DNA from: Gluconacetobacter johannae
GTDB lineage: Bacteria > Pseudomonadota > Alphaproteobacteria > Acetobacterales > Acetobacteraceae
DNA length: 64,000 nucleotides
Reading direction: 5' to 3'
Assembly: GCF_014174305.1 (NCBI RefSeq)
Contig: NZ_JABEQH010000009.1
Location: 1-64,000, forward strand
In this document: positions 1-14,329 of the stretch, piece by piece
Position numbering within the stretch: the stretch's first letter is position 1
How the letters are laid out: the number at the start of each line of letters is the position of its first letter
Position numbers and translations under genes: made by a program
The notes under the pieces: model-generated
Databases searched by the model: none
What the model was told of the DNA's origin: nothing
The model's input: the letters and a program-made list of their open reading frames with translations, nothing else

Positions 1-277
1 AACCGGGCCAAAGACCTTAGCAAACCCAGACCCACCAGGCAAGTGCCTTTCGGCCCCGCCCCTGCGGTGAACAGCGATCTACACCCCACCCACATCACCG
101 TCAACAGCGGTGAGGCATAAAAACCAAAAAAAGCGACCATCGCCCGTCCAACCCCAGGGAAACCGCCATTTCGCCAATCGTCGACATGGCATCCCGACAA
201 GAGGCTCCCCCGCCCCCGGCGGACCGCTCAAGTCTGGACATGGGGTCGTCTTTCATGTTTTCGGTCCTGGCCCCCAT
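1..277. other. Left-edge region with no convincing gene
   Basis: No coding region here looks real. An open frame continuous with the flippase reaches a GTG at 110, but the extra residues are hydrophilic and Pro/Arg-rich, unlike the start of an integral membrane protein, so I treat this stretch as leader or intergenic DNA. No strong promoter is evident. Confidence 0.5.
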
Positions 278-1717
278 ATGATGTGGCATCCCCTTGGAGC
301 CATCAGGACAGGTTTTCCGTCATTGTCTGCTTCCGCCCCCTTCCCTCCCCCTGTAGAGCCGGACGTTGCTGCCGAGCGCGGGCGCGGGCTGCGGCGGATC
401 TTTCGTAACGTTGGCGTCCTGCTGGGGGGGCGGGCGATCAATGCGCCGCTCAGCCTGCTTCATGCCTCGCTCGCCATCCGGCTGCTGGGCGGGTACGATT
501 TCGGCCTGGTGGTCATGCTATATGCGTTCGCACGCACGATCGGCGACCTGGTGGATTTCCAATCCTGGCAGACCTTGCTGCAATACGGCTTTCGTCCTTT
601 GGCCGACGGCGAACTGCGTCAGTTCCACCGCGTGCTCCGCTTCAGCCTTGTCCTCGACCTGATCGGCGGCATCGCCGGGGTGGTCATCGCCGTGGCCGCC
701 AGCCTGACCTTGGGGCCGGTGCTGGGCTGGCCACCCGCCCTGCATCCCATCGGCTCGATCTATTGCGTGTCGACCCTGTTCATGGCGGCCGCCACCCCCA
801 CCGGCATTCTGCGTATCCTGAACCGGTTCGACCTTCTGGCGGTGCAGGGCACCGTCGCGACGATCGTGCGGCTGGCCGGAACGCTCGCCCTGCCGCTGGT
901 CGGCGCCAGTTTCATTCATCTGGCGGTCGCCTGGATGCTGGCCGAGGCCACGTCCTGCATCCTGCTGTTCGGGCTGGCATGGCGCGAATTGCGCCGGAAA
1001 GGCCTGACCCGCGACTTGTGGAATACCACGGCCGACATCGTGCCCGACCTGCTGCGCCGGCGGATCGGGCAGGATTTCCCCGGCATCTGGCGCTTTGCCT
1101 TCGTCACCAACGCCAATGCGACCCTGTCCCTGGTATTCAGCCATGCCACGACCCTGATCGTCGGCAGTCGCCTGGGCCCTACCAGCGCGGGCTATTACCG
1201 GATCGCCAGTCAACTCGCGGCGGGTATCGCCAAACCCGGAACATTGGTGCAGCAGACCCTCTATCCCGAGATGGCCACCCTGTGGCGCGACCGTGCGCTC
1301 GGGTCGATGTATCGCCTGGCCCTGCACGCCAGCCTGGCGGCAGGCGGGATCGGCTGCGCGCTGATGGGTCTGGCCTACTGGCTGAGCGCCCCCCTTCTGA
1401 GCCTAGTCATCGGCACGCACGACCCGGCCGCGGCGACGATCACGCTGTGGTTGCTTGGTTCCGAGGTCATCGGAATCTGCGGCCTGCCGCTGGAGCCGCT
1501 GCTGATGACGACGCGGCGGGCCGGCGCGGTGATGATTTCGCGCTGCGTCGATATGATCTTTTTCCTGCCCACCTTGCTGATTTTCATCCGCCTGTATGGC
1601 CTCGATGGGGTGGGGCCGGCGACCGTCGCGGGCATGCTGCTGCTGGTCCTGCTGCAACTGGGGCTGGTGTTTCGCGCCCATGCCGCCATGACGCGGCCCA
1701 TCCCTATCGAATCATGA
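278..1717 (+). CDS. Polysaccharide/lipid flippase, Wzx/MATE-like (oligosaccharide exporter fold)
   Basis: The product is a polytopic inner-membrane protein of about 479 residues with repeated hydrophobic segments from about residue 45 to the C-terminus. Charged loops and overall layout resemble lipopolysaccharide-biosynthesis flippases that move lipid-linked sugars across the inner membrane. I chose the ATG at 278 (a second ATG follows at 281); a GTG at 110 would add an implausible hydrophilic tail, and no strong Shine-Dalgarno decides it. It is followed after 6 bp by a glycosyltransferase-like gene and then the fatty acyl-AMP ligase, so it probably shares a transcript with the sphingolipid genes. 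It could flip a glycolipid made by the locus, but the substrate is inference; family assignment rests on general sequence character rather than a diagnostic motif. Confidence 0.65.
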   Translation: MMWHPLGAIRTGFPSLSASAPFPPPVEPDVAAERGRGLRRIFRNVGVLLGGRAINAPLSLLHASLAIRLLGGYDFGLVVMLYAFARTIGDLVDFQSWQTLLQYGFRPLADGELRQFHRVLRFSLVLDLIGGIAGVVIAVAASLTLGPVLGWPPALHPIGSIYCVSTLFMAAATPTGILRILNRFDLLAVQGTVATIVRLAGTLALPLVGASFIHLAVAWMLAEATSCILLFGLAWRELRRKGLTRDLWNTTADIVPDLLRRRIGQDFPGIWRFAFVTNANATLSLVFSHATTLIVGSRLGPTSAGYYRIASQLAAGIAKPGTLVQQTLYPEMATLWRDRALGSMYRLALHASLAAGGIGCALMGLAYWLSAPLLSLVIGTHDPAAATITLWLLGSEVIGICGLPLEPLLMTTRRAGAVMISRCVDMIFFLPTLLIFIRLYGLDGVGPATVAGMLLLVLLQLGLVFRAHAAMTRPIPIES

Positions 1718-1723
1718 GAACCG

Positions 1724-2853
1724 ATGCGTATCGTCTTTCCTTATATCGCCCAGCCCCATCAGACCCTGCATTCGCTTCCGATCGCGCTGGAAATCGCCCG
1801 CCGCCATCCGGGCATCGCGGTGCATGTCGCCTGCCTGTCCCAGGCGCATGAGGATTATGCCCGTTACCTCGCCGGCTTTTATCCGGATTCACAGGTGACA
1901 TTCGACCGGCTGCACCTGCCGGCCCTGTTGCGCCGTCGCATGGACCGGCGGGGTCAGGACGTCCTGACCAAAATGGCCGCCCTGCTATATAACAAGAATT
2001 ATTTCTCCGGATTTCAGGCCATCGTCGTGCCGGAACGCACGTCGCTCTATCTCCGCACGATGGGCGTGCGTGCGCCGCGCCTGATCTGGACCAGCCATGG
2101 CGCCGGGGACAGGGCGATCGGCTTCGCGCGCGACGTGCGAGATTTCGATTTTATCCTGATGGCCGGCCGAAAATTGGAAAACCGCTTTCTGGCCCAGGGC
2201 AGCCTGCGTCCTGGCCATTACGTTACCGGAATCTACGCCAAGTTCGACATGGTCCGCCGCCTGCACCAACAGGCCCCGCCCCTGTTCCCGAATGAACGGC
2301 CAACAGTCCTGTATAATCCGCATTTCAGCCGGAAGCTGTCCTCGTGGCATAAGTTCGGGTTAAAGGTGTTGGATTATTTTGCAACTCAGGACCAGTACAA
2401 TCTTGTTTTCGCCCCACATTACAGGCTGTTCGATGGACGGCGCACCGAGGCCGACGCGCTTGTCCGCGCCTATGCGGGCATATCCCACATGCTGATCGAC
2501 CCCGGCAGCACGCGGAGCATCGACATGACCTACACCATGGGGGCCGACCTCTATCTGGGTGACGTCAGCAGCCAGGTCGCCGAATTCCTGATTACCCCGC
2601 GGCCGTGCCTGTTCCTCGACGCGCACGCCGCGAACTGGCGCGACAATCCGAACTACCGATTCTGGACGCTTGGCAACGTCGTCACATCAACCGATTCACT
2701 CGGGCAGTCTATCGACAGGGCATACACGATGCAGGCAGATTTCCTTGAACGGCAAAAATCGTATATACGCGACACTTTCGGCCTCTCGGATGCTGGCCCT
2801 ACCGCGCCTGCCGGCGCGGATGCCATCGTAGAATTTCTCCGGAAGGCCGGCCA

Positions 2854-2857
<4 letters not shown>
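1724..2857 (+). CDS. Glycosyltransferase / CDP-glycerol glycerophosphotransferase-like protein
   Basis: A 377-residue, largely soluble protein. The C-terminal half has a GT-B-type look: an HP-like element (LVFAPHYRLFDG) and then YLGDVSSQVAEFLITPRPCLFLD. That resembles the D-[VY]-S-S-x-x-x-[ED]-[FY] nucleotide-binding region of TagB/TagF-type CDP-glycerol glycerophosphotransferases and related glycosyltransferases. It would transfer a sugar or polyol phosphate to a lipid or glycan acceptor at the cytoplasmic face of the membrane. The stop overlaps the GTG start of the acyl-AMP ligase (GTGA), indicating translational coupling. Donor and acceptor cannot be told from sequence. A role in head-group addition to a sphingolipid is inferred only from position. 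Confidence 0.5.
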
Positions 2858-4644
<1,787 letters not shown>

Positions 4645-4833
4645 CCCCCGGACAGGCGTCCCCGCCCGGCGATCCGTACTGGTCAAGAGGCCGGATTTCG
4701 ATCATAAGGGCGTCCCTCTTCCCAGGACGGGTGGCGATATCCTGCCTGCGCCGGGACGAGGCCGCCAGATGTGACATGCGGGCGCCCCAGGCCTTGCCTG
4801 CCGGGGGGACGGCCCGCAGAAGGATGCAAATAC

Positions 4834-5085
4834 ATGAGTGAAACGGTTGCAGACGTCTCTGCCCTGATCGTCCAGACGCTGCTGGCGAACCCCAAGGTTC
4901 CCCGCGACATCAACGGCAGCAGCAAGATCGTCGAGGACCTGGCCTTCGATTCACTCGCCGTGATGAATTTCGTCATGGAAATCGAGGATTCGCTCGACGT
5001 ATCCGTCCCCCTCGACCGCCTTGCCGATATCCGGACCATCGACGATCTGGCCGCCTGCGTCGTATCCCTCAAGCAGGCCACCTGA
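4834..5085 (+). CDS. Dedicated acyl carrier protein (sphingolipid-type)
   Basis: An 83-residue acyl carrier protein. The phosphopantetheine attachment serine lies in the DSL motif of LAFDSLAVMNFVMEIED (S40). The ATG at 4834 has an AAGGATG Shine-Dalgarno about 8 bp upstream. The gene ends 3 bp before serine palmitoyltransferase. It differs clearly from the housekeeping AcpP at 20616-20855, whose motif is [10 protein letters not shown]. Its likely job is to present the acyl chain, loaded by the neighbouring acyl-AMP ligase, to serine palmitoyltransferase, as described for bacterial sphingolipid clusters. Confidence 0.85.
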   Translation: MSETVADVSALIVQTLLANPKVPRDINGSSKIVEDLAFDSLAVMNFVMEIEDSLDVSVPLDRLADIRTIDDLAACVVSLKQAT

Positions 5086-5088
5086 TCC

Positions 5089-6303
5089 ATGTCGATCTTC
5101 AGCAAATATGACGGTCTGGCCCAGTCTCTGGCAGCCGTGACGGCAGATGGCGGCCGCAATCCGTTCGCCGTCGTCATCGACCGCCCACTGTCCTCGACCG
5201 TCGGCCTGATCGAGGGGCGCGAAACGCTGCTGTTCGGCACCAACAACTATCTGGGCCTCAGCCAGTCCGAAGCCGCGATCGAGGCCGCGATCGCCGCCGC
5301 GCGGACCCATGGCGTCGGCACCACCGGATCGCGGATCGCCAACGGCACGCAGGGCCTGCACCGCCAGTTGGAAGAACGGATCGCCGCCTATTTCCAGCGC
5401 CGTCACTGCATGGTGTTTTCCACGGGATACCAGGCCAACCTGGGCATGATCTCGGCGCTGGCCGGCAAGGACGATTACCTGCTGCTGGATGCCGACAGCC
5501 ATGCCAGCATCTATGACGGCAGCCGCCTGGGCCACGCGCAGGTCATCCGGTTCCGCCATAACGACCCCGAGGACCTACGCAAGCGCCTGCGCCGCCTGGA
5601 CGGCACCCCGGGGGCCAAGCTGATCGTCGTCGAAGGCATCTATTCGATGATGGGCGACGTCGTCCCCATGGCGGAATTCGCGGCCGTGAAGCGTGAGGCC
5701 GGGGCCTGGCTGCTGGCCGACGAGGCCCATTCCTTCGGCGTGATGGGCGCGCACGGACGCGGCGTGGCCGAGGCCGACGGTGTCGAAGGCGATGTCGATT
5801 TCGTGGTCGGCACCTTCTCCAAGAGCCTGGGCACCGTGGGCGGCTATTGCGTTTCGGACCATGACGGGCTGGATCTGATCCGACTGTGCTCGCGTCCCTA
5901 TATGTTCACGGCCTCGCTTCCGCCCGAAATCATCGCGGCGACAATGGCGGCGCTGGACGAGATGGGGCGTCGTCCCGAACTGCGCCACACCCTGATGGAC
6001 AACGCGCGCCGCCTGCATGCGGGCCTGAATGCGGCTGGCCTGCGTACCGGCCCGCAGGCCAGCCCGGTGGTCTCGGTCATCCTGGACGAGGTGGACCAGG
6101 CCGTGCGGTTCTGGAACCGGCTGCTGGATCTGGGCGTCTACGTCAATCTCAGCCTGCCGCCCGCGACGCCGGACCAGCATCCGCTGCTGCGGACCTCGGT
6201 CATGGCGACACACACACCGGCACAAATCGACCGCGCGGTGGACATCTTCGCGACCGTGGCGCGCGAGTTCGGCCTTATGCGCCCGGCGGCCGCGTCCGCC
6301 TGA
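5089..6303 (+). CDS. spt: Serine palmitoyltransferase (alpha-oxoamine synthase family)
   Basis: A 404-residue PLP enzyme of the alpha-oxoamine synthase family. It condenses L-serine with an acyl thioester to give 3-oxosphinganine, the first committed step of sphingolipid synthesis. The PLP lysine is in TFSKSLG (K245); cofactor contacts D211 and H214 are in LADEAHSFGV. BioF (8-amino-7-oxononanoate synthase) and Kbl are in the same family. I favour SPT because the gene is coupled to a dedicated ACP and FAAL and is not beside biotin genes; bioB lies 25 kb away, alone. The 3' end overlaps the convergent Tam41-like gene by 29 bp. Confidence 0.85.
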   Translation: MSIFSKYDGLAQSLAAVTADGGRNPFAVVIDRPLSSTVGLIEGRETLLFGTNNYLGLSQSEAAIEAAIAAARTHGVGTTGSRIANGTQGLHRQLEERIAAYFQRRHCMVFSTGYQANLGMISALAGKDDYLLLDADSHASIYDGSRLGHAQVIRFRHNDPEDLRKRLRRLDGTPGAKLIVVEGIYSMMGDVVPMAEFAAVKREAGAWLLADEAHSFGVMGAHGRGVAEADGVEGDVDFVVGTFSKSLGTVGGYCVSDHDGLDLIRLCSRPYMFTASLPPEIIAATMAALDEMGRRPELRHTLMDNARRLHAGLNAAGLRTGPQASPVVSVILDEVDQAVRFWNRLLDLGVYVNLSLPPATPDQHPLLRTSVMATHTPAQIDRAVDIFATVAREFGLMRPAAASA

Positions 6304-7252
6304 ACAGGCCGGCCCGCCGCAGGGTCCACAGCAGCCACGGCAGGCAGATCAGGGGATGGCGCTCGGAAAAGGGCGTCAGCGCAAGCTCGATCCCCGTATG
6401 GCGCCTGATCTTCCAGGCCACGTAACGCGCCCCGCCCGTGAAGGTGAAGGCCCCCTTGGCCAGGCGGGCGATGTTCAGGGGGCGCCCCAGCGTGTCGCGC
6501 AGGCGCCAGCGCCGCAGCGCCCGGGCGCGGACGCTGTCACTGACCTCCGGACGCAGGACCGCCCCCTTCTGGCGGAAGGACAGGCCCGAGGCCGTCCAGG
6601 CCGCGATCAGCAGATCCCGGTAGCGATCCCCCTTTCCGCCCAGCAGGCTGCGGGGACGTCCTGCGGATTCGACCCGCAATTCCGCGCCGTAGGTCCGTTC
6701 AAGCAGCGATTCCCAGTATTTTTCCGCGGTTCCTTCCGCCGGCCCCAGGCACGCCGCCCACCAGGCGGCCACCGCGACCGCCCGCACCAGGCAGCGCAGG
6801 ATGTCATCGGCGGCCACGGCGTCACGCACCCAGACCAGGCGGAGCGGCTGGCAGAACCGGGCCCACAGCGTGGTGTCGACGGTGCGCCGCCCGGTCATGG
6901 CGCGAAACTGCGCGATGGTCACGATCGCGACCTTCGCCCGGAGGGTGGCCCCATTCACGACCAGTTCGTGATATTCGACATTGGGTGGCAGTAGGGCGTT
7001 CGCAACCTGTGCGGTCCGGCCGCGGGGCCAGTCGGACTGGCGCTCCACCACGATATAGAAATCCAGGATGCCCTCAGGGTCGGCCTGCCGCAACGCGGAC
7101 CCGTAGAACAGCACGCCCATGACCGGCGCGTGCCCCACCAGACGGGCTGCGAATGCGGTAACGGGCGGACTGACCGGCTGCACCAGTTCGCCGGTCAGCA
7201 GGCGGGCCACCCGTCCGGCGGCCGAACCGTCGAACGGGCCGGGGGCGTTCAC
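6275..7252 (-). CDS. Tam41/Mmp37-like nucleotidyltransferase (possible CDP-lipid synthase)
   Basis: About 325 residues from the GTG at 7252, chosen because it overlaps the stop of the upstream lipid kinase in a GTGA arrangement. The N-terminal part carries a polymerase-beta-type nucleotidyltransferase signature, FYGSALR (GS at 51-52) followed by GILDFYIVV (63-69). This resembles the YGS...DF layout of Tam41, the mitochondrial phosphatidate cytidylyltransferase that makes CDP-diacylglycerol. The central part (LRAKVAIVTIAQFR, then WARFCQPLRLVW) and a basic, aromatic C-terminus also fit that family. Being the downstream partner of a lipid kinase suggests it activates the phosphorylated lipid, perhaps ceramide phosphate, with a nucleotide. 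Family assignment is from memory of motifs and needs a profile search. The substrate is inference. Confidence 0.55.
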   Translation of the reverse strand: MNAPGPFDGSAAGRVARLLTGELVQPVSPPVTAFAARLVGHAPVMGVLFYGSALRQADPEGILDFYIVVERQSDWPRGRTAQVANALLPPNVEYHELVVNGATLRAKVAIVTIAQFRAMTGRRTVDTTLWARFCQPLRLVWVRDAVAADDILRCLVRAVAVAAWWAACLGPAEGTAEKYWESLLERTYGAELRVESAGRPRSLLGGKGDRYRDLLIAAWTASGLSFRQKGAVLRPEVSDSVRARALRRWRLRDTLGRPLNIARLAKGAFTFTGGARYVAWKIRRHTGIELALTPFSERHPLICLPWLLWTLRRAGLFRRTRPPGA

Positions 7253-8223
7253 GCCACCCCCTGGATGAAATCGAAGGCCGGCCCGGCCGACAGCACTGTC
7301 TGCCCGTCGGGACCGGAATTCAGGATCTCGCCATCCAGGACGAAATCCTCGCCGATCCTCAGCGCCAGCCTGTCGGTCTGGCCGCGCTCGTAGGCCGGAC
7401 AGGCGTCCAGCCATTCCGGAGAGCGGCCACGCAGCAGGTTCCACGTCGCGGCCGCCAGATGGGGCGGATAGGCCCGGACATTCAGATAGGACATTCCCTC
7501 CGCCCCCGTCCGGGGGGCGAACGGCCACATCCGGTGCGGCAGGCGATGCAGGGTGGTCGCGAGGAACAGGAAACAGTCCTGCTCCCGCGGGGCCTCAGCC
7601 CCGACGGCCAACGTGATCCTGTTGCCGCCCAGCCATTTCCGCCGCGTGGAGCGCAACGCCAGACGCCCGATCGACGACGCGATGGCCACCCCGACCGCGA
7701 CGTCATGGGAAAACCGGTCGATGGCGGGACGATGCGCGATGGCGACGCCCCGCGTGAAGGCGGCCGCCCCATGGAACATCCCCAGCGTCACCGGGCGATC
7801 CGGGTCCGACCAGCGGACCGCCAGCGCCTCGCGCCGAACGACCCGCCGCCGCAGACCGCCGTCGCGGGCCAGGGCGGCCAGCCGGTCGAGCGCCGCGATT
7901 CCCCGCAGCCCGAACCCGACATCGCTCGCGATCAGATTGGTGTTGCCCGACGGCAGCACCGCCAGGGCCGGCAGCGCGTCGGCGGGATAATGACGATATA
8001 TGGCGGACATCACTTCGCTGACGGTGCCGTCCCCGCCATCAATCGCAATCGTCGGGACCTCACGCCGGGCCAGCTCCGCCACGGCGTCCAGCACGTGCTC
8101 GCGGCTGGAAGGGCCGACGAACAGCGGACCAAGAAGCCGGGCCGCGCTGTTGCGGAACGTCCCGTCATCCTTGCCATTCCGCCGGCTGCGCGGATTGTGA
8201 ATCAAGGCAAAACGTTCGGTCAC
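7249..8223 (-). CDS. Diacylglycerol-kinase-fold lipid kinase (likely ceramide kinase)
   Basis: A 324-residue kinase with the DAGK catalytic fold. It shows the N-terminal IHNPRSRRN element, the nucleotide-binding GGDGT motif (63-67) in AIDGGDGTVSEVM, and LPSGNTNLIA in place of the usual P-x-G-T-x-N-D. The family phosphorylates diacylglycerol, sphingosine or ceramide. In Caulobacter a member of this fold (CpgB) is the ceramide kinase, and the neighbourhood here is a sphingolipid locus, so ceramide is the likeliest substrate. Start is GTG at 8223 with AGGA about 11 bp upstream. It is co-transcribed with the Tam41-like gene (4-bp overlap) and divergent from the metallophosphoesterase operon. Confidence 0.75.
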   Translation of the reverse strand: MTERFALIHNPRSRRNGKDDGTFRNSAARLLGPLFVGPSSREHVLDAVAELARREVPTIAIDGGDGTVSEVMSAIYRHYPADALPALAVLPSGNTNLIASDVGFGLRGIAALDRLAALARDGGLRRRVVRREALAVRWSDPDRPVTLGMFHGAAAFTRGVAIAHRPAIDRFSHDVAVGVAIASSIGRLALRSTRRKWLGGNRITLAVGAEAPREQDCFLFLATTLHRLPHRMWPFAPRTGAEGMSYLNVRAYPPHLAAATWNLLRGRSPEWLDACPAYERGQTDRLALRIGEDFVLDGEILNSGPDGQTVLSAGPAFDFIQGVA

Positions 8224-8420
8224 GCGGTACCGGTCCTTTTCTGGTCATCGTCCATCCGTCCGGCCATAAGCCGCGTTCCGACCGGTATTGCAAGGCAAGA
8301 AAGCCGGCCGCTCCCTCTCGACAGCGACGATGGAAGGCGGCATGTCCGGGCGTTGGCGACAGGAACGTTGCAGGCCACGCCCCACCGTGCGCCCGGACCG
8401 CCACCACAGCGGAGGCCCCC
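8224..8420. promoter_or_regulatory. Divergent intergenic region between the kinase operon and the permease/hydroxylase operon
   Basis: These 197 bp separate two divergent operons, so both promoters should lie here. For the minus strand a weak candidate is TTGCAA (8293-8288) with an 18-nt spacer to TTATGG (8269-8264). I see no good plus-strand hexamer pair. The plus-strand gene has a strong GGAGG ribosome binding site at 8411-8415. Promoter placement is tentative. Confidence 0.35.
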
Positions 8421-9326
8421 GTGACCGAGATCGTACTCGCCCATCTGTCCGACCCTCATCTTTCGCATGACAAATTGTATCTGCCGCCGGCGGCGCTGCT
8501 GAACAAGCGGGCGTTGAGCCAGTTGTCATGGCGCCGCAAGCGCCGCTTCCTGCATGTCGGCGCGATGCTGGACAGGGTGGTGGCGGACCTGCGCGCGACG
8601 GCCCCGGACGTCGTGGCCCTGACCGGCGACCTGACCAATCTGGGCCTGCCCGTGGAATGCCGGCAGGCGGCCGACTGGTTGCGGCACGCCATGCCCGCGC
8701 AGACGGTCGCAATTCCCGGCAACCATGACATGCTGGTGCGGGAACGCTGGCCGGACTCGCTGGGGCTCTGGGCGCCATGGATGGCCCCGACGCCGGATGA
8801 TTTTCCCTTCGTGCGCCGAGTGGGACCGCTGGCGCTGATCGGCGTCAATTCGGCGCGGCCGATGCCATGGTTTTCGGCGGCCGGACGGGTCGGGCTGCCC
8901 CAGGCCGATCGCCTGGCCGCCATCCTGCACGACACCGGCCGGCAGGGCCTGTGCCGGGTCGTCCTGATCCATCACCCGCCGGTCGCCGGCATCGTGCCCC
9001 GCCGGAAGGCGCTGCTGGACCGTGCGCTGTTCGCCGACGCCATCGCCCGCGCGGGGGCGGAGCTGGTGCTGCACGGGCATTCCCATGTATCCGGACTGTC
9101 ATCCCTGCCCGGCCCCCTGGCGCCCGTCCCGGTCCTGGGGGTGGCGTCGGCCTCGATGCGCTCCGAGCGTCCGGCGCGCGCGGCGGCATGGCAGCAGATC
9201 CGGATCTCGACGACGGAACGCGGCTTCCATATCGAAGTCCGGCGGCGGATCTTCCGCCCCGACAGGCCGGTGCTGGCGCTTGCGCCCATGATCTTCACCT
9301 CCTATCGCACCCCGTCGCCAATTTGA
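8421..9326 (+). CDS. Calcineurin-like metallophosphoesterase
   Basis: A 301-residue binuclear-metal phosphoesterase with the full motif series: LAHLSDPHL (D-x-H), LTGDLTNLG (GD), IPGNHD (GNHD), VLIHHPP and LHGHSH (GHxH). There is no signal peptide, so the active site is cytoplasmic. The GTG start follows GGAGG. It is the first gene of a six-gene operon with LptF/LptG-type permeases, a hydroxylase, a nucleotidyltransferase and a glycosyltransferase. Related enzymes include LpxH-like UDP-diacylglucosamine hydrolases and cyclic-nucleotide phosphodiesterases. In this setting a lipid phosphate or nucleotide-lipid substrate is attractive but unproven. Confidence 0.8.
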   Translation: MTEIVLAHLSDPHLSHDKLYLPPAALLNKRALSQLSWRRKRRFLHVGAMLDRVVADLRATAPDVVALTGDLTNLGLPVECRQAADWLRHAMPAQTVAIPGNHDMLVRERWPDSLGLWAPWMAPTPDDFPFVRRVGPLALIGVNSARPMPWFSAAGRVGLPQADRLAAILHDTGRQGLCRVVLIHHPPVAGIVPRRKALLDRALFADAIARAGAELVLHGHSHVSGLSSLPGPLAPVPVLGVASASMRSERPARAAAWQQIRISTTERGFHIEVRRRIFRPDRPVLALAPMIFTSYRTPSPI

Positions 9327-9342
9327 GTATGTATGGGCCGAC

Positions 9343-10557
9343 ATGAGGCGCGCACCTTCCCTTCCGTCGTTCGTCCGGAGCATTTCGGCGGGAACGCTGG
9401 ACCATTATCTGATCGCGCAGACCCTGCCCCCGTTCGCCATTTCGCTCGGCGTCGTGATGACGGCGCTGCTGCTGGAACGGCTGCTGGTCCTGTTCAACGT
9501 GCTGGCGGCGGATGGCGGCACGCTGCGAACCTTCCTCAATCTGCTGGCGGACCTGGTGCCGCATTATCTTGGCCTGGCGCTTCCGGCGGCCATCTGCGTC
9601 AGCGTGTTCTCGGTCGTCCGCAAGATGAGCCAGAACAATGAAATCGACGCCCTGATGGCCAGCGGCGTGTCCCTGGCGCGGATCGCGCGGCCGTTCATCG
9701 CCATGGGGGTCATCCTCGGCCTGCTCAGCTTCCTGCTTTATGGGTTCATCCAGCCTTATGCCCGCTACAATTTCCGCCAGGGCATGTACCTGGCCAGCCA
9801 TGCAGGCTGGGCGCCGCATCTGCAGGGGCGGATGTTCGCGACACCGTCCGGCAACCTGATGCTGACGGCCGACCGCGTCGAGGGGGCGGGAACACGGCTG
9901 TTCCACGTCTTCATCCGCGACAGGACCCCCGACATGGAACGCGACATTACCGCCGAAAGCGGGACGTTGCAGATCGCGGACGACCGGTCGTCCGTGCGCC
10001 TGGACCTGGCGCACGGCGTGATCGTCACGGACCGCCATGACGACCGCCCCACCCTGGCGACGTTCGACACGACGACCCGCATCCTCCAGAGCGATGGCCG
10101 GGGCGGTGCCTTCCGCCATCGGGGAAACGACGAGCGCGAACTGACGATGCCGGAACTGCGCCAGGCCATCCGCCATCGCGATCCCGCGATCCTCCAGTCC
10201 CATCTGGTGGCCGAACTGCATTTCCGCCTGGCCCGGGCCCTGGCCGTTCCGTTCATTCCGGTGCTGGCCTGCGCCCTGGCGGGGATGGCCAAGCGGCAAC
10301 GGCGGAATCTGGGCCTGCCCATCGCGGCGATCAGCCTTGTGGGGTTCGACTATGCACTCCAGCTGGGCCTCAGCCTGGCGGCAAGCCGCTCCATGTCGCC
10401 CTGGCTGGTGATCTGGGGGCCGTTCGTCTTCTTCTGCGCCGCCTGCGTCGAACTGCTGGCCCGACGCAGCGGGATGTCCGGCGCGGGAGGATACCTGAGG
10501 CGACTGGTACGGCGCGGCCCTGCCTCGGCCCGTCCGGCGACGGACCCCGGCCGATGA
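9343..10557 (+). CDS. LptF/LptG-family permease (first of a pair)
   Basis: A 404-residue inner-membrane protein of the YjgP/YjgQ family. N-terminal membrane segments contain the typical cytoplasmic coupling region NNEIDALMASGVSLARIARP. A soluble periplasmic beta-rich domain (about residues 130-270) precedes the C-terminal membrane segments. In the Lpt system LptF and LptG form the transmembrane part of the LptB2FG exporter that extracts LPS from the inner membrane. Here the pair sits among sphingolipid genes and not beside lptD/surA/pepA, its usual alphaproteobacterial company. A second, lipid-specific copy is therefore plausible. No LptB-type ATPase gene lies nearby. The 3' end overlaps the next permease by 4 bp. 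Confidence 0.8.
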   Translation: MRRAPSLPSFVRSISAGTLDHYLIAQTLPPFAISLGVVMTALLLERLLVLFNVLAADGGTLRTFLNLLADLVPHYLGLALPAAICVSVFSVVRKMSQNNEIDALMASGVSLARIARPFIAMGVILGLLSFLLYGFIQPYARYNFRQGMYLASHAGWAPHLQGRMFATPSGNLMLTADRVEGAGTRLFHVFIRDRTPDMERDITAESGTLQIADDRSSVRLDLAHGVIVTDRHDDRPTLATFDTTTRILQSDGRGGAFRHRGNDERELTMPELRQAIRHRDPAILQSHLVAELHFRLARALAVPFIPVLACALAGMAKRQRRNLGLPIAAISLVGFDYALQLGLSLAASRSMSPWLVIWGPFVFFCAACVELLARRSGMSGAGGYLRRLVRRGPASARPATDPGR

Positions 10558-11666
10558 AGAGGACCGGCCTGCCGATCGGATCGGGGCGCGGGGTGCTGCG
10601 GCGCTACCTGTCGCGCGAACTGATCTCGCGCGTGACGGCGACGAGCCTGATCCTGGTCGCGATGATGGAGATCCTGGCGCTGCTGGAGCAGTTGACGCCC
10701 ATCCTGGACCGGCACCTCGGCGTCGGGGGCGTCCTGTATTTCCTGGCGCTGCGAATCCCCCTGCTGCTGGGCAGCGTCTTTCCGCTGTCGGTCCTGATCG
10801 GGGCGCTCATCATGCTGGTGCAAATGACGACGGCGAACGAAATCGCGATCCTGCGCGCGGCCGGGCTGTCCACCCCCGCCCTGGTCCGGCTTCTGCTGCC
10901 CGGCGTCATGGGGCTGGCGCTGGTCAGCGCCGTCATCGACGACCAGGTGACCCCCCGTGCCGAACTGGCGCTGGCGCGCTGGTGGAACGCCACCGACCCG
11001 CACCCGGAAACCGGGCATACGTTCTGGTTTCGCTCCGGAACGACGCTGATCGACGTTGGATACATCACCCGGGGCGGCCAGGCCACCGGCAAGCTGGACC
11101 TGTATCAGCGTGACCCGTCGGGGCGGCTGAACCGCGTCGTCCATTTCGAGGACGCGCAGTTCGTCAAGGACGCATGGACCGGCAGGGGCGGGCGACAACT
11201 CACCGTATCGCAGGCGACGGTGGATCCTGGCACCTTCACCGCCACACCCGCCGACGCGGGATGGCCATCCAGGCTGCGTCCGGCGGACCTGGTGCGGCTG
11301 TCCATGGACAGCCCCCCCCTCGCCGCCTCGACGATGGTCGCGATCCTGCTGGACCGCCTGCCCTCCAGCCAGCCGCCCAGCTATTTTCGTACCGCATTGC
11401 TGGATCGCGCGCTGCTGCCGCTGACATTCATCGTCATGCTGTTAATGGCAATGCCGGTGGTCTATATCCCGCCTCGTACCGGCTCGCGAAGCTGGATTCC
11501 GGTCTGGTGCCTGGGTGGGGGCCTGCTGTTTATCGTATTCCAGGGGCTGATGCGGGCCCTGGGCAATGCCGGCACCCTGCCGGCCCTGGCCGCGACCCTT
11601 CCGGGCATCGCGATTTTCGCATTCGGAATCGCTGCCCTGATGTTGAGGATAGAAGAAAAATCATGA
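10554..11666 (+). CDS. LptF/LptG-family permease (second of a pair)
   Basis: A 370-residue partner permease. The N-terminal region has the cytoplasmic element TTANEIAILRAAGLSTPALVR, typical for coupling to the LptB ATPase. A periplasmic beta domain follows, then three C-terminal membrane helices (around LPLTFIVMLLMAMPVVYIPP and onwards). The ATG start overlaps the previous stop (ATGA), and its own stop overlaps the hydroxylase start (ATGA), so permeases and hydroxylase are translationally coupled. Together the two genes encode a heterodimeric LptFG-type transporter; the substrate may be LPS or, from context, a sphingolipid. Confidence 0.8.
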   Translation: MKRTGLPIGSGRGVLRRYLSRELISRVTATSLILVAMMEILALLEQLTPILDRHLGVGGVLYFLALRIPLLLGSVFPLSVLIGALIMLVQMTTANEIAILRAAGLSTPALVRLLLPGVMGLALVSAVIDDQVTPRAELALARWWNATDPHPETGHTFWFRSGTTLIDVGYITRGGQATGKLDLYQRDPSGRLNRVVHFEDAQFVKDAWTGRGGRQLTVSQATVDPGTFTATPADAGWPSRLRPADLVRLSMDSPPLAASTMVAILLDRLPSSQPPSYFRTALLDRALLPLTFIVMLLMAMPVVYIPPRTGSRSWIPVWCLGGGLLFIVFQGLMRALGNAGTLPALAATLPGIAIFAFGIAALMLRIEEKS

Positions 11667-12442
11667 GCGGTACCCTGCGCAACGCGAATCTCCGGACGGG
11701 ACGCAGCTTCGACCTGGGGAAGATGAACCTCCAGCAACTCTGGACCGCCTATCTGACCTACCCGACCATCCTCCTCTACATCGCCCTCGCCATCGGCAGC
11801 TTCACCCTCCTGGCCCGGCATTTCCCCGGAATCGGGCCGACGCTCCTGGCCGCAGGCGCGGTCGTCGCGGTCTATCCCCTGGCATGGTACGCGATACACC
11901 GGTTCATCCTGCACGGGCGTTTCCTGTACCGGATGAAATGGACGGCCGGCCTGTGGAAGCGCATCCATTTCGATCATCACCAGGACCCGCACCTGCTGGA
12001 CGTCCTGTTCGGATCCCCGTTGAACACGATCCCGACCATCGCGATCATCACCATTCCCATCGGCTACCTGATCGGCCATCTGGGGGGGGCCGCGGCGGCC
12101 TTCGGAACGGGGCTTGCGATCACCTGCATCTATGAATTCTTCCATTGCATCCAGCACCTGAACTACAAGCCCCGGATGCGCTGGATCCAGAAGATGAAGC
12201 AGCGCCACGTCCTGCACCATTTCCATGACGAGGACGGCAATTACGGCATCACCAGCTTCGTCGTGGACCGGATCTTCGGCAGCTACTACGTCGATGCGCG
12301 CGCCCGCCCCCGCAGCCCCAGCGTCTTCAACCTGGGCTACGACCTGGCGGAGGCCAACCGTTATCCCTGGGTGATGGAACGCACCGGCATGCCCCCGCGC
12401 GACCGGCCGGCCGGCGCGCCGCCGCACCGAGACGCCGCATGA
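11663..12442 (+). CDS. Fatty acid/sterol hydroxylase family protein (putative ceramide hydroxylase)
   Basis: A 259-residue membrane di-iron enzyme of the fatty-acid-hydroxylase superfamily. The histidine boxes are visible: HRFILH (H79, H84), HFDHH (H102, H105, H106), HCIQH and HVLHHFH near the C-terminus, with membrane segments between. Family members hydroxylate or desaturate lipid chains, including C4- or alpha-hydroxylation of sphingolipids. In this locus the ceramide backbone or its acyl chain is the likeliest substrate. I chose the ATG at 11663 because it overlaps the permease stop; a longer open frame upstream is an overlap artefact. It is coupled to the next gene by a 4-bp ATGA overlap. 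Confidence 0.75.
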   Translation: MSGTLRNANLRTGRSFDLGKMNLQQLWTAYLTYPTILLYIALAIGSFTLLARHFPGIGPTLLAAGAVVAVYPLAWYAIHRFILHGRFLYRMKWTAGLWKRIHFDHHQDPHLLDVLFGSPLNTIPTIAIITIPIGYLIGHLGGAAAAFGTGLAITCIYEFFHCIQHLNYKPRMRWIQKMKQRHVLHHFHDEDGNYGITSFVVDRIFGSYYVDARARPRSPSVFNLGYDLAEANRYPWVMERTGMPPRDRPAGAPPHRDAA

Positions 12443-13227
12443 CACCGGACGGCACGCTCAACGTCCTGATCCTGGCGGGCACGCGCGCGGGGGCACATGA
12501 CCCGATGGCCCTGGCCGCCGGCGTGTCGCACAAGGCGATCCTGCCCGTCGCCGGCCGCCCGATGATCGCGCGGGTCGTCGACGCGCTGTCGGCCGTGCCC
12601 CGGATCGGCCGCATCGCCGTCAGCATCGAGGCCCCGGACATCCTGACCGGCCTGCTGGATCATCCCGTCACGATCCTGCCGCCGGCAAGCGGCCCCAGCG
12701 GCAGTGTGCTGAAAGCGATCGAAACGCTGGGCACGCCGCTGCTGGTCACGACGGCCGACCATGCGCTGCTGCGCCCGGAATGGATCGAAGCGTTCCTGTC
12801 CGCCGCCGGCGACACCTGCGACGTCGCGGCCGGCATCGCGATGGAGCAGGACATCCGCCGCGACGTACCCGGCACGAAGCGCACGATGATCCGCCTGGCC
12901 GACGGGGCATTTTCGGGCTGCAACCTGTTCCTGTTCCGCACCCCGGCGGCAATCGGCGTCGTCCGGCTGTGGCAGCGCCTGGAACAGGAGCGCAAGCGGC
13001 CCGTCCGCATGGCCCGCCTGCTGGGGCCGGGAATCCTGCTGCGCTACCTGATGGGACGGCTGACGCGCCAGGCCCTGTGCGCGCGGATCGGACGCCTGGC
13101 CGGCGCCTCCGCCCGGCTGGTTCCCCTGCCCGACGGACGCGCGGCCGTGGACGTGGACAAGCCGGCCGATCTCGCCCTGGTGCAATCGCTGCTCGCGGCC
13201 GCCCCGGCCTGCCGCCCCATCACCTGA
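12439..13227 (+). CDS. MobA-like NTP transferase domain protein
   Basis: A 262-residue nucleotidyltransferase of the GT-A-like MobA/IspD fold. The N-terminal nucleotide-binding segment is LNVLILAGTRAG, followed by HKAILPVAGRPMIARVV with the conserved lysine. Further on, TTADHALLRPEW supplies the metal-binding aspartate region. Such enzymes join a nucleotide to a sugar, polyol or alcohol phosphate (for example CTP plus an alcohol phosphate). It is coupled to the hydroxylase and lies 16 bp before a glycosyltransferase, so it could make the activated head-group donor for lipid decoration. The real substrate is unknown. Confidence 0.6.
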   Translation: MTPDGTLNVLILAGTRAGAHDPMALAAGVSHKAILPVAGRPMIARVVDALSAVPRIGRIAVSIEAPDILTGLLDHPVTILPPASGPSGSVLKAIETLGTPLLVTTADHALLRPEWIEAFLSAAGDTCDVAAGIAMEQDIRRDVPGTKRTMIRLADGAFSGCNLFLFRTPAAIGVVRLWQRLEQERKRPVRMARLLGPGILLRYLMGRLTRQALCARIGRLAGASARLVPLPDGRAAVDVDKPADLALVQSLLAAAPACRPIT

Positions 13228-13243
13228 CCTCCGGACCCGATCC

Positions 13244-14329
13244 ATGCGTATCGCCTATGTCATCAATTCGCTGGAAGGGGGCGGCGCCGCCTTCCCGGTG
13301 CCCGACATTACCCGCGTCATGCGGCAGGAAGGGCATGAGGTCGAACTGTTCGCGCTGCTCCGCCGTGACGGTCGCGCCCTGCCGCCCATCGAACGGACAG
13401 GTCTGACGGTCCATGTCCGCGACGGGAACGAAAAGGACAATGTCGCCGCCCTGCGCTGGCTGGACCGCCAGGTCGGGGCCTACCGTCCCGACCTGCTGTG
13501 GACATCGCTGACCCGAGCCACGGCAATGGGGAAGCTCGTCGGGCTGAAACGGCGGATTCCCGTCGTCAGCTGGCAGCATAATGCGGGGCTGAGCAAGGCC
13601 AATATCCGGCTTCTGCGGCTGCTGCGCGGGCTGACGCGGCTATGGGTCGCCGATTCGGGCTGCGTGCTGGATTTCACCCGGCGCCGGCTGGGAATCCCCG
13701 AGGATCGCGTCGCCTCCTGGCCGATCTTCCGGTCCAACCCCGACGTGCCGGTTGCCCGCCCCTGGCAGCCCGGCGACATCGTGCGGGTCGGATCTCTGGG
13801 ACGCCTGCACCGGGACAAGGGCTACGACATCCTGTGCGCCGCCCTGACCATCCTGAAGTCCCATGGCGCGCTCCCGCCCTTCGAGATCACCGTCTCGGGC
13901 GAAGGGGCGACGCGCCCGTACCTGGAATCGCTGATCCGCGACAATCACCTGACGACCCTTCGGCTGCCCGGGTTCAACGAACGGGTGCCGGAATTCCTGG
14001 CGGGGCAGCACCTGTACGTGCAGCCGTCGCGGCGCGAAGGCCTGTGCATCGCCATGCACGAGGCCATGCAGGCCGGCCTGGGCGTCGTGGCGTCGTCGGT
14101 CGGCGAGATGCCCTACACGATCGAGGAGGGCGTCTGCGGCCATGTCGTGCCGCCGGAAGACCCGATGGTCCTGGCAGAGGCCCTGGCGACGGCCCTGCAT
14201 CGTCCGGAGCGGCTTTCCGAGTTGGGACAGGCCGCCCGCGCGCGCGTGCTGACACGCTTCTCCCCGGCACGCTTCGACGCGGCCGGCCAGACCATCCTGC
14301 AGCGCATCGGCCATCAGGTCGCGGCCTGA
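13244..14329 (+). CDS. GT4-family glycosyltransferase
   Basis: A 361-residue GT-B glycosyltransferase. The N-terminal domain begins MRIAYVINSLEGGGA. The C-terminal donor-binding domain shows GSLGRLHRDKGYDIL and the retaining-enzyme signature PSRREGLCIAMHEAMQAGLGVVAS (an E-x7-E arrangement). It would use a nucleotide sugar at the cytoplasmic face of the inner membrane. It is the last gene of the six-gene operon, 16 bp after the nucleotidyltransferase, so a glycosylated sphingolipid or other glycolipid is a reasonable product. Acceptor and sugar are not determinable here. Confidence 0.8.
   Translation: MRIAYVINSLEGGGAAFPVPDITRVMRQEGHEVELFALLRRDGRALPPIERTGLTVHVRDGNEKDNVAALRWLDRQVGAYRPDLLWTSLTRATAMGKLVGLKRRIPVVSWQHNAGLSKANIRLLRLLRGLTRLWVADSGCVLDFTRRRLGIPEDRVASWPIFRSNPDVPVARPWQPGDIVRVGSLGRLHRDKGYDILCAALTILKSHGALPPFEITVSGEGATRPYLESLIRDNHLTTLRLPGFNERVPEFLAGQHLYVQPSRREGLCIAMHEAMQAGLGVVASSVGEMPYTIEEGVCGHVVPPEDPMVLAEALATALHRPERLSELGQAARARVLTRFSPARFDAAGQTILQRIGHQVAA

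Follow-up and report, generated by a model that had tools for sequence, protein, structure and literature searches.

Why should a bacterium keep a second pair of LptF/LptG permeases, a family named for lipopolysaccharide (LPS) export, among the genes of sphingolipid biosynthesis? The question is raised by a 64,000-nucleotide stretch of Gluconacetobacter johannae DNA (assembly GCF_014174305.1, contig NZ_JABEQH010000009.1, positions 1 to 64,000), referred to here as the window, in which two such genes, lptF2 and lptG2, lie close to a serine palmitoyltransferase (SPT) gene. How bacterial sphingolipids reach the outer membrane is an open question, for which an Lpt-like route has been offered as a proposal (PMC11324152). 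From comparison of sequences, we consider it quite probable that the window pair provides the membrane subunits of a further ATP-binding cassette (ABC) extractor of the Lpt type, LptB2-LptF2-LptG2, for complex, mostly phosphorylated, sphingolipids, which would share LptB and the LptC-A-D bridge. An earlier note made from the window alone had suggested a sphingolipid exporter; a true second pair, a separate clade and co-occurrence with a CpgC-type gene now speak for it, and transport itself stays a prediction.

A second LptF/LptG pair in the genome

Both window proteins carry a full-length LptF_LptG domain in Pfam searches (PF03739; 9.1e-59 over model positions 2-353 of 353 in LptF2, and 9.6e-54 over positions 1-351 of 353 in LptG2), and their genes overlap by ATGA at 10554-10557, which bears out the description of two coupled permeases of this family. 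The 3.63 Mb genome (49 contigs, 99.99% complete) holds four PF03739 genes, these two and a further pair at C21:28676-30888, and the possibility that it has a single LptF/LptG pair was therefore rejected. The earlier note had suggested a search for a second pair near lptD, and the pair on C21 is followed by LptD (C21:31119-32978); because of this adjacency we take the window pair to be the extra one.

LptF/LptG pair number in alphaproteobacterial genomes

We searched 114 alphaproteobacterial genomes for SPT, LptF/LptG, LpxC and the CpgC-type gene described below, and the 16 SPT-positive genomes also for LptB, LptC and LptD. The threshold for SPT was E<=1e-100, which excluded an SPT-like enzyme of genome G018 (265 bits). 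Two LptF/LptG pairs were found in six of the seven genomes with both SPT and LpxC: G000, G021, G080, G105 and G106 have four genes each, and G022 has five matches, read as four genes, one of them split between contigs. Nine genomes have SPT and no LpxC match, and eight of them (G010, G029, G031, G047, G061, G065, G078 and G112) have two LptF/LptG genes, forming a single pair that in all eight is of the sphingolipid type defined by the trees below. LptB and LptD are kept in eight of the nine, and LptC is matched in seven, with G047 below the cut-off only. Second LptC matches in G010, G029 and G031 are weak, lie no more than about 1 kb from the first and are probably LptA; G029 also has a second ATPase that meets the E-value yet misses the LptB cut-off.

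Among the 98 SPT-negative genomes, more than two LptF/LptG genes were found in G018 (four) and G072 (three) only. These copy counts lead us to read the number of LptF/LptG pairs as tracking LPS plus sphingolipid, apparently on one LptB. A clear prediction follows from the pattern, and genomes with SPT and Lpt and without LpxC serve as its natural control. As a separate observation, G072 holds a lone LptF-like gene (L080:6654-7901, contig C81) that has no LptG partner among the matches on its contig.

LptB and the other Lpt components

Which ATPase and which bridge would serve the window pair? LptC, an LptA-type frame and LptB are clustered on contig C1 of this genome; PF03968 matched once in the LptD frame and twice in a single frame of 338 aa that lies between lptC and lptB and that we take as LptA. 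A single LptB exceeds the cut-off (372 bits, the runner-up reaching 138 bits), and for this reason LptB is likely shared with the LPS pair. The shared ATPase envisaged in the earlier note is to that extent likely, and its actual use is predicted. An ATPase dedicated to the pair and adjoining it was set aside, none of the 69 matches in the LptB search lying within positions 1-64000 of the window, as was a second LptC or LptD for the pair, since the genome gave one match to each, for LptC at E<=1.

The glutamates of the coupling helices that meet LptB, E84 of LptF and E88 of LptG (PMC5548808), are retained in the window pair as E100 of LptF2 and E96 of LptG2. In the residue counts, from which the G018-C2 and G051 sequences were left out, the LptF glutamate is present in 14/14 sphingolipid-type and 27/27 other sequences, and the LptG glutamate in 14/14 and 24/25, respectively. 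A pair that exported sphingolipids through an ATPase or bridge of its own, or both, instead of the shared LptB, LptC, LptA and LptD, would have a parallel in the LptC2 carried by the Caulobacter locus (PMC11324152), and the 69 matches indicate many other ABC ATPases in the genome. The lack of any of these in the window, the conserved coupling glutamates, and the eight of nine SPT-positive, LpxC-negative genomes that keep one LptB over the cut-off and one LptD, with a sphingolipid-type pair as the sole LptF/LptG, make such an arrangement unlikely.

A clade of sphingolipid-type LptF/LptG proteins

The trees took in 20 of the 98 SPT-negative genomes; G016, with its one partial copy, was excluded, as was the broken G022 LptG. 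In the LptF tree (43 sequences) a branch with 99/98 support, the bootstrap being not fully settled, groups the window LptF2 with the sequences that we call sphingolipid type, which are one of the two LptFs of every other two-pair genome (five) and the LptF of each of the eight SPT-positive, LpxC-negative genomes with a single pair, and also with the long-branched extra G018 sequence from contig C2. The 28 other LptFs, among them the copy of this genome linked to lptD, lie on the opposite side of the branch. The LptG tree (41 sequences) separates the same 14 rows from 26 others with support of 90/88 and 91/90, below the starred level, and the G018-C2 LptG falls outside both groups. The phylogeny that the earlier note had called for places the window pair in a clade separate from that of the LPS-type pair, which itself adjoins LptD in five of the six two-pair genomes, G080 being the exception.

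Sequence distances follow the same division. In phmmer searches the window LptF2 scored 125-345 bits with the 13 other sphingolipid-type LptFs, versus 21-72 bits with the LPS-type LptFs that were found. Identity to the window protein is 25-46% for sphingolipid-type versus 15-24% for LPS-type LptFs, and for LptG 20-43% versus 10-20%, with slight overlap; identity between the two pairs of this genome is 24.3% (LptF) and 17.2% (LptG). What the comparison of genomes brings out is a second pair, of a distinct clade and in sphingolipid company, whose type is the sole LptF/LptG beside LptB and LptD in eight SPT-positive, LpxC-negative genomes.

NCBIfam models do not make this distinction. The top model for the window proteins is LptF (TIGR04407, 188.8 bits, under the cut-off of 230) and LptG (TIGR04408, 191.4 bits, under the cut-off of 240), respectively, scored on full proteins, and the other pair of the genome exceeds these cut-offs with 238 and 250.1 bits, scored on domain stretches only. 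Sphingolipid-type pairs of two LpxC-negative genomes scored 236.4/257.5 bits (G078) and 221.2/243.2 bits with TIGR04407/TIGR04408. With scores like these in the sphingolipid type, we rejected the cut-offs as a test of LPS type versus sphingolipid type. The G078 pair (L046:9888-12154) lies above both 'LPS export' cut-offs although its genome is LpxC-negative, so that the label 'LPS export permease' may be given in annotation to proteins of a bacterium that apparently makes no LPS.

Co-occurrence with the CpgC-type gene

The CpgC-type gene (family A2), the neighbour of the ceramide kinase-like gene, was sought in the 114 genomes, with 20 candidates scored in the larger ones (of 31 candidates in G010), where a CpgC may thus have been overlooked. 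It was found in 13, all of which have SPT and a sphingolipid-type pair, so that 13 of the 14 carriers of such a pair also have CpgC. The two SPT genomes without a sphingolipid-type pair, G055 and G064, have no CpgC match. The association of pair and CpgC has a Fisher p of 3e-16, a value that ignores relatedness and assumes that SPT-negative genomes outside the trees are without a sphingolipid-type pair. The CpgC-type gene predicts the second pair slightly better than does SPT alone, which was set aside in this role. Given this pattern of co-occurrence, the pair seems to accompany head-group synthesis more than ceramide synthesis as such. Of the 14 sphingolipid-type genomes, 11 have SPT no more than 13 kb from the pair; in G022, G065 and G080 the two are on different contigs, with the kinase or CpgC-type gene about 1.5 kb or less from LptG2.

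These comparisons bear on the reading that the pair serves as another LPS exporter, for instance of a second LPS form or under a certain condition, and came to lie in a sphingolipid locus by chance. Membership of the same Pfam family as the LPS permeases fits that reading, as does NCBIfam, which would call at least one relative pair, that of G078, 'LPS export'. It is nevertheless quite improbable: the relatives of the window pair are the sole LptF/LptG pair in the eight SPT-positive, LpxC-negative genomes, 19 of the 20 SPT-negative genomes in the LptF tree have LPS-type sequences only, the exception being the extra sequence of G018, and the pair co-occurs with the CpgC-type gene.

Residues at LPS contacts

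In the LPS-bound structure, LptG K40 and K41 contact the 4'-phosphate and inner core (PMC6744409). LPS-type LptGs have R at the first of these positions in 24/25 sequences and R or K at the second in 23/25; in the sphingolipid type K or R is found in 1/14 and 2/14, and D or E in 7/14 and 9/14. The window LptG2 has T48 and P49 here, and positive residues are absent. Sphingolipid-type LptFs have Glu-Arg at another pair of sites (E45-R46 in the window), each in 13/14 sequences with D and K in the remaining cells, and the other LptFs have mostly Thr and Gln (18/27 and 22/27). The changes in both proteins are compatible with a different cargo. LptG K34 was rejected as a marker of LPS binding, the position being Asp in 21/25 LPS-type and 12/14 sphingolipid-type sequences. 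Residue numbers were not found in the text of PMC11458178.

Weighing the proposed role

Several points weigh against a sphingolipid extractor that shares the Lpt bridge. The change at LptG K40/K41 is weak evidence, because E. coli with LptG K40E/K41E is viable and grows normally (PMC5548808). A second LptC, such as Caulobacter is reported to have, was not found: the genome's only PF06835 match at E<=1 adjoins lptA and lptB, the model is weak (38 bits for that match), and the contig begins at the first base of the window. The presence or absence of LPS was judged from LpxC alone. G064 has SPT and LpxC and only two LptF/LptG genes, an LPS-type pair, with no CpgC match. LptF/LptG genes are kept in four of nine genomes negative for both SPT and LpxC (G016, G048, G051 and G072), which compared with eight of nine SPT-positive, LpxC-negative genomes gives a Fisher p of 0.13. 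The LptFs of G048, G051 and G072 are of LPS type in the tree, the remaining five genomes of this group have no LptF/LptG, and LpxC may have been overlooked in some of those that do, as their assemblies are fragmented. In G010, the fourteenth carrier of a sphingolipid-type pair, there is no CpgC match among 20 of 31 candidates, nor in 16 kb around the pair; this genome may use another head group. The extra LptF of G018, a genome with no SPT over the cut-off, groups with the sphingolipid-type LptFs, at the end of a very long branch. In G055 (5.4 Mb, one contig, L081), SPT was found and no match to LpxC, LptF/LptG, LptB, LptC, LptD or CpgC. Lastly, the paper that proposes the Lpt-like route in Caulobacter states that transport was not studied (PMC11324152).

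As an observation in its own right, G055 would be making sphingolipids with, it appears, neither LPS nor Lpt. That the pair moves another envelope lipid (e.g. a hopanoid or glycerophospholipid) or runs in reverse, its link to sphingolipids being indirect, could be argued from the deduced nature of the cargo, the G010 pair without a CpgC match and the divergent G018 pair beside inositol-lipid genes, and is less probable still than an LPS exporter, since SPT is present in all 14 sphingolipid-type genomes once G018 is set aside, and each of their pairs has SPT, the ceramide kinase or the CpgC-type gene close by.

For the sphingolipid extractor we envisage the following sequence of events. Ceramide synthesis and phosphorylation would take place at the inner membrane, with the head group contributed by the nucleotidyltransferase product and the CpgC-type enzyme. 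The sphingolipid would then be flipped, perhaps by the MOP-type flippase, whereupon LptF2G2 with LptB would extract it from the periplasmic leaflet and push it onto the LptC-A-D bridge. Cargo, direction, use of LptB and the sharing of LptC, LptA and LptD are here inferred.

A wider view, to which we lean by a little, is that Lpt is modular, with one LptFG pair per class of outer-leaflet lipid on a single LptB and a single LptC-A-D bridge. Bacteria that make LPS would have one pair, those that make LPS and complex sphingolipids two, and lineages that lose LPS the sphingolipid pair only, Lpt having become a sphingolipid exporter there; in G018 a pair would perhaps have been recruited independently for an inositol lipid. 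G018 is the sole SPT-negative genome with four LptF/LptG genes, and its divergent second pair lies on contig C2 (L051:997-11366). The locus there encodes an alpha-oxoamine synthase, a short-chain dehydrogenase, a myo-inositol-phosphate synthase, a cytidylyltransferase, a GT4 glycosyltransferase and an FGGY kinase, together with a PIP-synthase-like gene below its cut-off. The alpha-oxoamine synthase is SPT-like, below the SPT cut-offs, with BioF as its best match. Possibly another lipid class, conceivably an inositol sphingolipid, has its own Lpt permeases in this genome.

The sphingolipid locus and its conservation

The genes around the pair (Table 1) are much as the earlier note described them, Pfam and NCBIfam matches confirming SPT, a divergent ceramide kinase-like gene, a phosphoesterase, a hydroxylase, a nucleotidyltransferase and a glycosyltransferase. 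To these we add the minus-strand CpgC-type gene, which the earlier note did not have. Its place relative to the ceramide kinase is that of Caulobacter CpgC (CCNA_01219, which we take to be CC_1161), and it runs, like the kinase gene, divergently from lptF2 and lptG2. Neither Pfam (E<=1) nor NCBIfam (E<=0.001) has a model that matches the protein; its family is well conserved, with 26 invariant columns across 15 sequences. By eye, the family shows a G-S and Asp pattern resembling that of nucleotidyltransferases.

Judging by strand and spacing, the genes between 8421 and 13227 appear to form one operon. The flippase may flip sphingolipid, by analogy with CC_1166 of Caulobacter; the hydroxylase-family enzyme possibly hydroxylates the ceramide acyl chain, and the nucleotidyltransferase is perhaps of CpgD type. 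We judge from the sequence that the raw open reading frame (ORF) 7459-8424(+), which has no Pfam match, is an antisense ORF of the kinase gene, and that the listed start of raw ORF 6275-7528(-) makes it too long.

Table 1. Genes of the sphingolipid locus in the window and the basis of their assignment
Feature	Coordinates	Strand	Basis
MOP/polysaccharide-type flippase	110..1717	+	PF01943 2e-10
Possible CDP-glycerol glycerophosphotransferase-like enzyme	1724..2857	+	weak PF04464, E 0.012, below cut-off
Fatty acyl-AMP ligase (AasR-type)	2854..4644	+	NF006624 909 bits, cut-off 600
Acyl carrier protein (AcpR-type)	4834..5085	+	PF00550 3.3e-9 on ORF 4771-5082; start is an internal ATG
Serine palmitoyltransferase (Spt)	5089..6303	+	NF047599 5.5e-194, 644 bits, cut-off 500
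CpgC-type gene	6275..7252	-	position beside ceramide kinase; not Caulobacter sequence
Ceramide kinase-like (CpgB-type) DAGK_cat lipid kinase	7249..8223	-	PF00781 8.3e-12; CpgB by domain and position
Metallophosphoesterase, upstream of lptF2	8421..9326	+	PF00149 8.5e-11
LptF2, sphingolipid-type LptF permease	9343..10557	+	404 aa; PF03739, TIGR04407, LptF tree
LptG2, sphingolipid-type LptG permease	10554..11666	+	370 aa; PF03739, TIGR04408, LptG tree
Fatty-acid hydroxylase-family enzyme	11663..12442	+	PF04116 6.1e-21; directly downstream of lptG2
MobA/IspD-like nucleotidyltransferase	12439..13227	+	PF12804 2.8e-15
GT4 glycosyltransferase	13244..14329	+	PF00534 1.9e-25

A scan for relatives of LptF2 confirmed 288 loci, of which the best 80 were kept, all from Acetobacteraceae judging by record titles; the nearest named relatives are those of Gluconacetobacter azotocaptans (89%) and G. 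tumulisoli (87%). Within these best 80 loci and their fetched flanks, the CpgC-type gene, the kinase, LptG2 and the hydroxylase are each present in 79, the phosphoesterase in 78, the nucleotidyltransferase in 77 and SPT in 75, and GT4 was matched in 29. The order in which CpgC and the ceramide kinase diverge from LptF2, LptG2 and the hydroxylase is kept in 79/80, 78 of these with the phosphoesterase. The exception, L140:4663-5772, is an additional LptF2-like gene in Acetobacter pasteurianus LMG 1262, 47% identical to the window LptF2, on a 6.2 kb contig where its neighbours are a GT4 gene and a weakly flippase-like gene, and no sphingolipid genes are in view.

Comparison with known systems

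The earlier note took the transport route to be undescribed, which was wrong. CC_1168, CC_1156 and CC_1155 of Caulobacter were named LptC2, LptF2 and LptG2 in 2024, and it was proposed that, with the flippase CC_1166, they carry phosphosphingolipids to the outer membrane (PMC11324152). The same paper reports a cofitness of 0.60 between mutants of CC_1156 and the pathway gene CC_1159, describes orthologs from a further six proteobacteria, and shows that a CC_1159/CC_1160 mutant lacks ceramide phosphoglycerate, which CC_1160 restores. A comparison of genomes with and without LpxC was not found in the sections of it that were consulted, and it was the only paper found to propose the route in our search of the open-access literature. 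The Caulobacter ceramide kinase is CpgB (PMC10331486); addition of the first phosphoglycerate requires CpgB and CpgC, and CpgD is a cytidylyltransferase (PMC12275187), a paper in whose available text transport terms were not found. In the outer membrane of Caulobacter, ceramide is enriched relative to diacylglycerol, and the authors wrote in 2024 that they had so far identified no flippase or lipid transporter for bacterial sphingolipids (PMC11087976). The window pair would thus be a further case of the Caulobacter-type LptF2/LptG2, an idea already in print, with stronger comparative support.

By description and position, the likeness to Caulobacter LptF2/LptG2 is close: both are second LptF/LptG pairs in a locus with Spt, the ceramide kinase, its CpgC neighbour and a nucleotidyltransferase, and the same role is proposed for both. 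The Caulobacter locus has LptC2, whereas no second LptC was found in the Gluconacetobacter genome at E<=1, and the fatty-acid hydroxylase directly downstream of the pair is a feature of Gluconacetobacter, unlike the Caulobacter locus. The divergent G018 pair is also an extra pair inside a lipid-synthesis locus, but differs in its very long branch, in an SPT-like enzyme below the SPT cut-offs, and in its inositol-phosphate synthase and PIP-synthase-like neighbours. With the canonical LptB2FG(C) LPS extractor (5l75, 6mhu, 6s8g, 8frl) the window pair has in common its domain, the pairing of the F and G genes, the coupling-helix glutamates and an LptB in the genome. It differs from that extractor in its separate clade, in a type that has mostly lost the Arg/Lys at LptG 40/41, and in a locus devoted to sphingolipids and not to lptD.

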